From: an uncultured marine group I thaumarchaeote
GTDB lineage: Archaea > Thermoproteota > Nitrososphaeria > Nitrososphaerales > Nitrosopumilaceae
DNA: 51,821 nt
Assembly (NCBI GenBank): GCA_902606965.1
Contig: CACLIK010000003.1
Span: forward strand, 1 to 51,821
Direction of reading: 5' to 3'
The notes beneath the pieces are model-generated. The model was given only the letters and a program-made list of their open reading frames with translations, did no database searches and was not told the DNA's origin. Each line of letters starts with the position of its first letter. Positions within the stretch are counted from its first letter, which is position 1. Shown in pieces: positions 31,181 through 33,912 of this stretch. A program made the position numbers and the translations under genes.

Positions 31181-32416
31181 TTATAAGACGTCTACGAGTA
31201 TTTCGTCAGATTTGAGAGTGTTTTTGACTAAATCTGGAGTAATTGTGAGGTTGAATTTCTTTGTATTTCCATGAATTCCTTGGTGTATCATTTTACCAGT
31301 AATGAGACCGGATAGCTCTATTTCATTAAGCATTTGTGTAACACGCCTCTGTGTGAGTGTGTTTTGGTGAGTTGTTTTACAAAGTGATTTGTAGCCAGCG
31401 TAGATGTCACCAGTTGAGATGTTTGGTGATTTCATTACAGTGATTACAAGTAACTTCTCGTGTAATGAAAACGCGTTAAGTTGTTGTGATTCCTTATCTA
31501 TCTCAATTCTTTGAGATGCCAAACGTATGTGTTCGTCCGTTATGGATTTGTCCTGTTTGAGTTCTGCAGTCTTTGCAGCCACATCTAATAGTTTTATTGC
31601 CCTTCTGGCGTCACCGTGTTCTCTACATGCAATAGAAGCACATAGATTCAAAGCTCCACTTGAGACTGCGTCTTCCTCGAATGCTAATGGTATTCTATCC
31701 TCTAAGATTTCTTTAATCTCGTTTGTCTCATATGCTGGAAAAACAAGTTCTTCCTCACTAAGTGTGCTAATCACTCTTGGGTCTAGTTCGTCTTTGAATC
31801 TCACATCGTTAGAAATTCCAATTAGGGATAACGAGCCGTTTTTTAGTTTTAAGTTTGCTCTGGTAATTGAGTAAAGAACGTCTTTACCAGTCTTGTCAAC
31901 AAGTTTAGCAAGATGATCAATTTCATCTATTACAAAAACAGAATTAATTTTGTTTTTATCAATAATGTAAAGAATGCGATTGAAGACTTCACTGATTGAC
32001 AATCCTGTGTTTGGTAACCAAAGTTTGTCGTCAGGCGTCTTTTTTGATTTGAGACCAAGTTGTCTACCCAAGTCAACTAACACGTTGTAAAGATTTGATT
32101 GGTCTTTTGCGTTTGTCGTTGCTATTTTAATTTGGTGCGAATTCTTGTCTACCCTGTTTTGAATTTGGCCTAATACTTTTTTTATTACAAGAGTCTTGCC
32201 AGTTCCTGGTTTGCCGTAGACTAGTAAGTTTGGTGGTATTGATTTTTTGTATAGTGGGATTAATGATTGTGTTACTAGTTCCTGTTGCTTGTCTCTGTGT
32301 AAAATTCGTTCTGGAATGTAATCATGGCGTAATACGTTGGGGTTTTTGATTAACAAGTTACCTTGCTCTGCGTTATCAAGCAGTCTTTCCACTGGATCTA
32401 AAGTCGTTGTACTCAT
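31181..32416 (-). CDS. orc1: Replication initiator Orc1/Cdc6
   Basis: 411 aa from ATG 32416 (a GTG at 32527 would add 37 residues rich in Asn/Ser that do not look like the family). Walker A YGKPGTGKT at 67-75, Walker B VFVIDEIDHLAK, sensor regions around LIGISNDVRFKDELD, and a C-terminal winged helix (TQRRVTQMLNEIELSGLITG). It binds ORB elements at the origin and loads MCM. The 530-nt region upstream carries repeats of the origin type, so this copy likely sits at oriC. Confidence 0.93.
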   Translation of the reverse strand: MSTTTLDPVERLLDNAEQGNLLIKNPNVLRHDYIPERILHRDKQQELVTQSLIPLYKKSIPPNLLVYGKPGTGKTLVIKKVLGQIQNRVDKNSHQIKIATTNAKDQSNLYNVLVDLGRQLGLKSKKTPDDKLWLPNTGLSISEVFNRILYIIDKNKINSVFVIDEIDHLAKLVDKTGKDVLYSITRANLKLKNGSLSLIGISNDVRFKDELDPRVISTLSEEELVFPAYETNEIKEILEDRIPLAFEEDAVSSGALNLCASIACREHGDARRAIKLLDVAAKTAELKQDKSITDEHIRLASQRIEIDKESQQLNAFSLHEKLLVITVMKSPNISTGDIYAGYKSLCKTTHQNTLTQRRVTQMLNEIELSGLITGKMIHQGIHGNTKKFNLTITPDLVKNTLKSDEILVDVL

Positions 32417-32948
32417 TTTGAGATCATTCTCTATCGTAATTCGGCACTTGAATGGATCCAGTAGTTCGTTTTCACCATATTGATCGTTCTGGTTGACATT
32501 CTCTGATCGACCTGATCGATGACACACACACCATCATTTCTAATCTATTTTAGAAATAATGTGTTATTTTGATTTGATTCTTGTTAGTTTGTTAATGTCA
32601 TAAAAAATTTTTTTAAAACAAAAAGACTAGAAACGAAGGTGTGTGGGTTCATAACAAAAAGATTTGTTAATTATGAGTTATAGTTTTACCAAAGAAGGCA
32701 AAAACAGGCTTATTTGGCTGTTAGGGGTGTTAATAAGACCCTTAACAACTGTTAACGGACCAAAAATACCCCCCAGTTTCCACTCTAGGCATAAAGCCAG
32801 ACCTTACCCCCCTATTTCCAGTCCAGCCTCTGTTAACAACTAAAAACACCCCAGCGTGGGCTAGGCAGTCAATCTTAACACATTTGTTTGTTAACAAAAC
32901 TTGTAGGATCCATTGAAGTGTTAACACAAGATCCTCATAGATCTCGAT
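32417..32948. other. Putative replication origin (oriC) beside orc1/cdc6
   Basis: About 530 nt between orc1/cdc6 and a winged-helix-like gene. From left: direct repeats CTGATCGA at 32503-32510 and 32512-32519; an inverted repeat ATTTCTAA/TTAGAAAT (32536-32557); an AT-rich tract 32560-32625 that could unwind; an ORB-like element at 32625-32647; and two further ORB-like elements in the other orientation at 32767-32788 and 32805-32826. Seven TGTTAA(C/T) copies run through it. I see no convincing gene. Confidence 0.75.
32590..32925. repeat. Origin repeats: ORB-like elements and TGTTAA(C/T) motifs
   Basis: The two right-hand elements share CCCCCC followed by a 2-nt spacer and TTTCCA with TC shortly after (32769-32785 and 32807-32823), the reverse of the archaeal ORB shape TGGAAA-spacer-GGGGG. 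The left one, at 32625-32647, is plus-oriented with GAAACGAAGG and GTGTGGG. TGTTAAC occurs at 32750-32756, 32831-32837, 32889-32895 and 32919-32925; TGTTAAT at 32590, 32665 and 32728. They are close to half-sites of the palindrome GTTAAC. Confidence 0.7.
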
Positions 32949-33332
32949 ATGAAACAGAAAAGGATACGAATAAACCTGGAGGACACTGAAGGTGCCAAAT
33001 TCAAGTTTGACATTGAGGGTAACGTCACCAAGGACAAAGTCCTAAAACTATTCGAATTAATGGATTTAATGAATATAGAGGAAGAACAGGCCCCAGACTT
33101 GGACTCTGTAGGAGGCAAGATCTGGAATGTTGTAGAGGGCCACTTCCCTGCAGGCAAATTCACCTCCTCAGACGTGCTTGAAAAGTACGAAGATGAGTAC
33201 AATGAGCCTATCAAACTAAGCATAGTTTCTACCTATCTGGCAAGGTTCGCTTCACGAAACAGGATTGAGCGTGCACGTGTAGGAAGGGAATGGTCATACC
33301 AAATCATTCGTATAGCCCAAAAACATCCTTAA
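32949..33332 (+). CDS. Small winged-helix-type protein next to the origin, 127 aa
   Basis: The N-terminal third (KRIRINLEDTEGAKFKFDIE) has alternating charged/beta residues; the central helix KDKVLKLFELMDLMNIEE is acidic; the C-terminal half (FTSSDVLEKYEDEYNEPIKL, then STYLARFASRNRIERARVGR, then EWSYQI) has the helix-helix-wing order of a winged helix. ATG at 32949 lies 23 nt downstream of the last TGTTAAC copy. Function unknown; origin-proximal location suggests replication, which is inference. Confidence 0.6.
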   Translation: MKQKRIRINLEDTEGAKFKFDIEGNVTKDKVLKLFELMDLMNIEEEQAPDLDSVGGKIWNVVEGHFPAGKFTSSDVLEKYEDEYNEPIKLSIVSTYLARFASRNRIERARVGREWSYQIIRIAQKHP

Positions 33333-33336
33333 TCGC

Positions 33337-33912
33337 TTACTGCGATACTGCGTAAACAACATCGCCTTCACCAGAACCAACCCGTTCTCTACCTTTATCG
33401 GTAATTGTATACCTATAAGGCCTGGCAGAAGTGTCTCTATTAACAAAACCATCCTCAAACAACTTTTTCATCAACCTTGAAACATGTTCACGTGATTTTC
33501 CAAACGTCACTTCAATGTCACGTGATGTCATCGGACCCTGTGTGATTTTTTCCAACACAAATGTAACCGACTCTTCAAAGCTCATGTTGGGAACTCGTGC
33601 AGCCGCTTTTGGTTTCGGAGCAACAAACTCTGGTTCCTTTACTTCTGGCGTATCGAACGACTTGACTTTTTTCGTTGGCAAGTCAGGTTTGGTGTATTCT
33701 TCACCATCTAACTCCATAGCATCTAGGCGTATTTTCATGTCAATCAACTCCTTTTCATAGTAATCAACACGTTCTGAGTTTGTTGGAGCAATCTTTTCTG
33801 ACACTCCAACTGATCGTGTCTTGTTGTACAAGTACAAAGTTACAAGACCGCTAAGAAACGCTAGCACTGCAACCAATATGATGCCCGCATCTGGAATGTC
33901 AATTATCATCAC
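33337..33912 (-). CDS. Membrane-anchored winged-helix regulator, 191 aa
   Basis: Residues 8-28 form one membrane helix (AGIILVAVLAFLSGLVTLYL). A short coiled-coil-like segment (SERVDYYEKELIDMKIRLDAM) and a Pro/Lys linker follow. Residues 105-180 hold a winged helix: SFEESVTFVLEKITQGPMTS, RDIEVTFGKSREHVSRLMKK, LFEDGFVNRD and the wing YRYTITDKGRERVG. A DNA-binding domain tethered to the membrane beside the origin is unusual. Two ATG codons at 33912/33909. Confidence 0.7.
   Translation of the reverse strand: MMIIDIPDAGIILVAVLAFLSGLVTLYLYNKTRSVGVSEKIAPTNSERVDYYEKELIDMKIRLDAMELDGEEYTKPDLPTKKVKSFDTPEVKEPEFVAPKPKAAARVPNMSFEESVTFVLEKITQGPMTSRDIEVTFGKSREHVSRLMKKLFEDGFVNRDTSARPYRYTITDKGRERVGSGEGDVVYAVSQ

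Follow-up and report, generated by a model that had tools for sequence, protein, structure and literature searches.

A putative chromosomal replication origin of a marine ammonia-oxidising archaeon with ORBs and a second, interleaved box array

Sequence comparison leaves little doubt that the intergenic region between the divergent genes for the initiator Orc1/Cdc6 and for P0002, a small predicted winged-helix protein, is where chromosome replication starts in a marine ammonia-oxidising archaeon. It carries three ORBs together with an array of TTAACA/TGTTAA boxes. We find it reasonably likely that this Orc1/ORB origin carries a further nucleoprotein array at fixed positions, to which P0002 probably binds and which would be analogous and apparently unrelated to the ucm/UBP system of Sulfolobus. 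Ammonia-oxidising archaea are abundant in the sea, and the analysis yields a candidate protein, a putative site and a candidate specificity residue for them and for much of the Thermoproteota.

The locus, its ORBs and the skew of relatives

The host genome comprises 733 kb, is 63% complete and consists of 46 contigs, the third of which is the window (the whole stretch of 51,821 nucleotides that was analysed). The named relatives closest to it are uncultured Marine Group I thaumarchaeotes, and the genus also includes Candidatus Nitrosopelagicus records. The genes, the ORBs and the AT-rich tract of the locus are as follows.

31181 to 32416, minus strand: orc1/cdc6 initiator gene, 411 aa
32417 to 32948, no strand: putative origin region in the gap between the divergent genes cdc6 and P0002; unique in its own genome
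32596 to 32629, no strand: AT-rich tract directly outside ORB1, candidate unwinding element
32630 to 32647, plus strand: ORB1, GAAACGAAGGTGTGTGGG (family consensus GAGTGGAAATATTGGTGTGTGGG)
32769 to 32785, minus strand: ORB2, with its G-string on the minus strand, facing ORB1
32807 to 32823, minus strand: ORB3, oriented as ORB2; at -142 from the P0002 ATG, a clade-specific position
32949 to 33332, plus strand: P0002, 127 aa, predicted beta-beta-alpha part and winged helix; candidate box-binding protein
33337 to 33912, minus strand: P0003, predicted membrane-anchored winged-helix protein, tail-to-tail with P0002 (Pfam HTH_27, 1.2e-05)

The orc1/cdc6 product matches the Pfam families Cdc6_lid (1.4e-20) and Cdc6_C (3.3e-15) and reaches 335.8 bits with NCBIfam TIGR02928, for which the cutoff is 181.3. 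Only one match, hence a single copy, was found in the incomplete genome, and the gene adjoins this region in 79 of 80 relatives. Every element that the initial annotation had named is in its place, including the CCCCCC-spacer-TTTCCA pair 38 nt apart. The ORB core CCCCNNNTTTCCA occurs twice in the entire window, at 32770 and 32808 (again 38 nt apart; expected 0.12), and GAAACGAAGG lies within ORB1 at 32630-32639. The G-strings of ORB1 and of ORB2/3 point inward, as multiple inverted ORBs. The family consensus, CTGGAnTGGAAATAAAGGGGT, drawn from 150 sites, agrees with the published common archaeal ORB motif, TCCA[CG]T[TG]GAAA[TC][GA]AAGGGGT (PMC4164010). AT content is 90% at 32600-32629, and the mean of 79 family loci peaks at the equivalent place, at 87%. 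With the P0002 ATG as reference, the ORBs of this clade have shifted from -242 and -181 to -180 and -142. One genus falls into two sharply separated groups by Cdc6 identity (91-96% versus 61-62%, for the locus at 32417-32948 against L018-L030), and this division coincides with the ORB relocation from -242 to -142.

As the genome is in 46 contigs, skew was read from three complete relatives, using third-position skew corrected for transcription and gene strand; the raw GC skew of the window was uninformative. In two of the three, G025 (same genus) and G301 (same family), the corrected skew flips at the locus and near the antipode. G025 is a single contig with the cdc6-P0002 gap at 0/1232 kb, and its corrected GC3 skew stays below zero over the first ~565 kb and is mostly above zero from 626 kb onwards. 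A raw-skew inflection near 470 kb in this genome was due to gene-strand bias, and correction placed it at ~600 kb, near the antipode. The AT3 skew of G301 changes sign between 650 and 700 kb, with the origin at 675.5 kb, and a second time at ~1630-1725 kb, close to the antipode (1636 kb). The third relative, G109, gave no usable corrected skew pattern, so that the inflection sought as a check on the initial annotation is found in G025 and G301 and not in G109.

The identification as an origin is made because cdc6 adjoins the region, the ORBs match the published motif and the skew flips in G025 and G301. It supports the earlier proposal of a putative origin beside orc1/cdc6, against which neither the skew nor the conservation of the repeats has spoken. 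Skew alone cannot distinguish an origin from a terminus. This, and the lack of a skew pattern in G109, leaves room for a locus that is a decayed or minor origin, or for a skew that marks the terminus; both seem very improbable, however, given how strongly ORBs and boxes are conserved together with Orc1 at the locus and given the single origin of N. maritimus, mapped by marker frequency according to passages in PMC4010727 and PMC5333045 that cite Pelve 2013.

The box array and its conservation

Counted as merged TTAACA/TGTTAA sites, nine boxes fall within the 532 bp of the region, whereas 532-bp stretches elsewhere in the window hold 0.42 on average and never more than 3. TGTTAAY shows no overall enrichment across the whole window (30 matches versus 25.4 expected); in the region it is located at 32590, 32665, 32728, 32750, 32831, 32889 and 32919. 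The 600 bp upstream of cdc6 contain 9 boxes against 0.85 expected (p ~0.003 in a shuffle test, the floor of 300 shuffles), and other TTAACA clusters inspected in the same genome hold at most 3 boxes per 350 bp. Chance clustering of TGTTAA was ruled out by these shuffles together with positional conservation. The initial annotation had listed seven TGTTAA(C/T) repeats: all are present and six are conserved, but even the four closest relatives do not share the one at 32590, and the minus-strand TTAACA boxes at 32742 and 32875 had been missed. The boxes are listed below with their distance from the P0002 ATG.

32665 to 32670, plus strand: box TGTTAA (B2), ~-284; in 5/5 closest genomes; bin filled in 58/79 family loci
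32728 to 32733, plus strand: box TGTTAA, -221; mainly in its own clade; in 4/5 closest genomes
32742 to 32747, minus strand: box TTAACA (B4), -207; bin filled in 78/79 loci
32750 to 32756, plus strand: box TGTTAAC (B5), -199; in 5/5 closest genomes; bin filled in 39/79
32831 to 32838, no strand: palindromic box TGTTAACA (B6), -118; bin filled in 74/79
32875 to 32880, minus strand: box TTAACA (B7), -74; 79/79; first half of a 16-bp direct repeat
32889 to 32896, no strand: palindromic box TGTTAACA (B8), -60/-58; 76/79
32919 to 32926, no strand: palindromic box TGTTAACA (B9), -30/-28; 71/79

B4 and the box at 32750 together form TTAACA-AC-TGTTAA, the sole exact TTAACANNTGTTAA in the window. Across the whole genome G000, TGTTAAC occurs about half as often as the reversed sequence used as control (56 and 54 against 105 and 111 on the two strands), a shortage that looks like selection against it away from the origin.

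Positions were compared over 79 Nitrosopumilaceae loci in which cdc6 adjoins P0002. Boxes recur at nine positions, approximately -294, -285, -274, -208, -200, -119, -75, -59 and -29 from the P0002 ATG, each filled in 39 to 79 of the 79 loci. The conservation in relatives that was to be checked is borne out, as ORBs and boxes are kept at every one of the 79 loci that have an upstream region and also far outside this family. The arrangement TTAACA-N10-TTAACA, made up of the boxes at -75 and -59, is present in 19 of 20 tested genomes, each time at the origin, and is rare elsewhere. As for the layout, most boxes keep their place and the position of the ORB pair is clade-specific: in the clade of this genome B4 to B9 are unmoved although the ORBs were relocated, which argues that the two sets are under separate constraint. 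We consider the boxes very likely to be a component of the origin.

Boxes and P0002 across the Thermoproteota

P0002 homologues were found in 187 of 299 sampled Thermoproteota genomes, and cdc6 and P0002 are mostly divergent neighbours throughout the order and in many other families and classes. The box is of the TTAACA type or, in most lineages outside the ammonia oxidisers, TTCACA. Combined as TTMACA, in which the M was chosen after data inspection, it is enriched over dinucleotide shuffles at 27 of the 28 origins from genomes with P0002 and at none of the 7 regions upstream of orc1 from genomes that lack it, with the limits that these control genomes may have one common ancestor and that the phylum samples share ancestry.

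In several lineages P0002 was relocated away from the origin. Distances of 2.8 kb to ~60 kb separate it from cdc6 in L226 (family f2), G068, G083 and G149, and there the boxes lie upstream of cdc6, with none or few at P0002; over all separated pairs they are on the cdc6 side in 4/5 cases. In G210, ORB-like sites and boxes adjoin P0002, 3.4 kb from cdc6. Most further P0002 genes that do not adjoin cdc6 have 0-2 boxes upstream. These arrangements bear on the view that the locus is an ordinary Orc1/ORB origin and that the TTMACA boxes are operators of a transcription factor controlling cdc6 and/or P0002. Such a role would fit the position of B7-B9 within ~80 bp of the P0002 start and the fact that winged-helix-turn-helix proteins are often repressors. 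We nevertheless regard it as quite unlikely, since the P0002 promoter is without boxes in four of the five separations, so the boxes are not its operator; since they are not tied to cdc6 either, G210 having them with the ORBs beside P0002; and since they interleave with the ORBs across ~300 bp at fixed spacing. An autoregulatory operator of P0002 as the sole explanation was ruled out by the rearranged loci. Overall, the boxes appear to travel with the origin and not with one promoter.

Some rearranged loci differ in further respects. The cdc6-P0002 pair of family f2 (L226:1420-3244 in G053, and the relative G037) is split by ~2.8 kb holding, as judged by eye, a HEAT-like-looking repeat protein and a DHH/RecJ phosphoesterase-looking ORF. 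In L288 (G048; family f13, genus g19) origin, P0002 and cdc6 follow one another in this order, with both genes on a single strand and not divergent. Apparent P0003 homologues adjoin P0002 at L226:99-518 and lie directly upstream of the origin in G048 (L288); P0003 of the window (33337-33912) has a membrane-like stretch at its N-terminus.

Database searches with P0002 gave no significant match in Pfam, NCBIfam or PHROG, no PDB sequence match below E 0.1 and, for its model in Foldseek, no PDB match below 1e-3; viral relatives were searched for and none were found. The fold matches are generic winged helices, including the Cdt1 C-terminal domain 3a4c at E 1e-2, and VIA-align likewise returned generic winged helices such as Fur (Z 11.4), RosR and A. 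pernix Orc1. None of these matches to the predicted structure names the function of P0002. The literature searched, which comprised papers available without subscription, contained no report of TTAACA boxes or P0002. In the model, which has a mean pLDDT of 77, a beta-beta-alpha part is followed by the winged helix; the ten-residue blocks from 51 to 120 reach pLDDT 83-94, and the predicted recognition helix spans residues 90-102.

Within this helix, position 92 is occupied by Thr in 54 of the 55 genomes with TTCACA boxes and by I, V, L, M or A in each of the 19 with TTAACA boxes. No other column of P0002 cleanly separates the two types on the full set. The TTAACA type is found in two separate classes, represented by the ammonia oxidisers in one and by family f26 in the other, and the correlation depends on these two lineages. 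Exceptions are G061, which has Ala with TTCACA, and genus g19, which has Val with mixed or TTCACA boxes; L135 relatives have Val with mixed boxes. In a control on a smaller set, 2 of 412 columns of Cdc6 were separating as well, versus 2 of 136 in P0002, so the correlation is suggestive and not proof.

Given synteny, phylogenetic profile, box placement and the correlation of the putative specificity residue, P0002 is favoured as the candidate reader and probably binds the boxes, in line with the earlier suggestion that a second factor, possibly an adjacent winged-helix protein, could bind TGTTAA(C/T). The boxes could also be an origin component read by another binder, be it a nucleoid protein, P0003 or Orc1 itself, with P0002 just syntenic. 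P0003 is a second winged-helix neighbour, and the Sulfolobus ucm-binding protein, which was identified through affinity purification, has hundreds of further binding sites (PMC12141716); the profile, synteny and recognition-helix correlation, however, favour P0002, and we hold another binder to be unlikely.

In the preferred reading, Orc1/Cdc6 would sit on the three ORBs with inward-facing G-strings, beside the AT-rich tract, as the sequence suggests and as is established for other archaeal origins. In other archaea, Orc1 at ORBs recruits MCM. The second array, TTAACA/TGTTAA here and TTMACA phylum-wide, is interleaved with the ORBs at fixed distances, and its boxes would be read by the predicted recognition helix, so that P0002 could form a fixed complex interleaved with Orc1 and act as a structural or regulatory origin factor. 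For many Thermoproteota we lean slightly towards an ancient two-part origin, with Orc1 on ORBs and the winged-helix P0002 family on TTMACA boxes, in which specificity would have switched at least two times via one recognition-helix residue. More tentatively, and by analogy with UBP on ucm, P0002 may recognise its sites by sequence and serve in origin architecture or licensing, positioning DNA and helicase around Orc1.

Comparison with known origin systems

As in other archaeal Orc1/Cdc6-ORB origins, an orc1-adjacent intergenic region contains inverted ORBs with G-strings and an AT-rich tract. Unlike in those origins, the locus has 8-9 TTMACA boxes in addition, arrayed at fixed positions, and its highest-AT tract lies outside ORB1, not between the inverted ORBs. 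Accessory architectural sites interleaved with initiator boxes are also known from bacterial oriC, where Fis and IHF sites offer a functional analogy (PMC12141716), although the proteins and sequences differ from those here. WhiP at Sulfolobus oriC3 resembles P0002 in being a winged-helix protein encoded beside an origin. WhiP is described as a Cdt1 relative and acts at an origin without ORBs (PMC4010727, PMC5333045), whereas ORBs are present at the locus described here.

The closest parallel is ucm/UBP, in which a non-ORB motif inside the origin is likewise conserved with the origin across a clade and the reader is likewise a small DNA-binding protein, UBP having 111 aa as the actual reader and P0002 127 aa as the candidate. 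The ucm element lies midway between inverted ORBs and is needed for firing, and UBP contacts MCM (PMC12141716). The sequence of ucm differs from the boxes here. UBP touches DNA by beta-hairpins, its free dimer is strand-swapped, and the authors regard ubp as having been acquired relatively recently in Desulfurococcales and Sulfolobales (PMC12141716). Because UBP as described binds through beta-hairpins and has no winged helix, which sets it apart from the predicted winged helix of P0002, P0002 would be its analogue.
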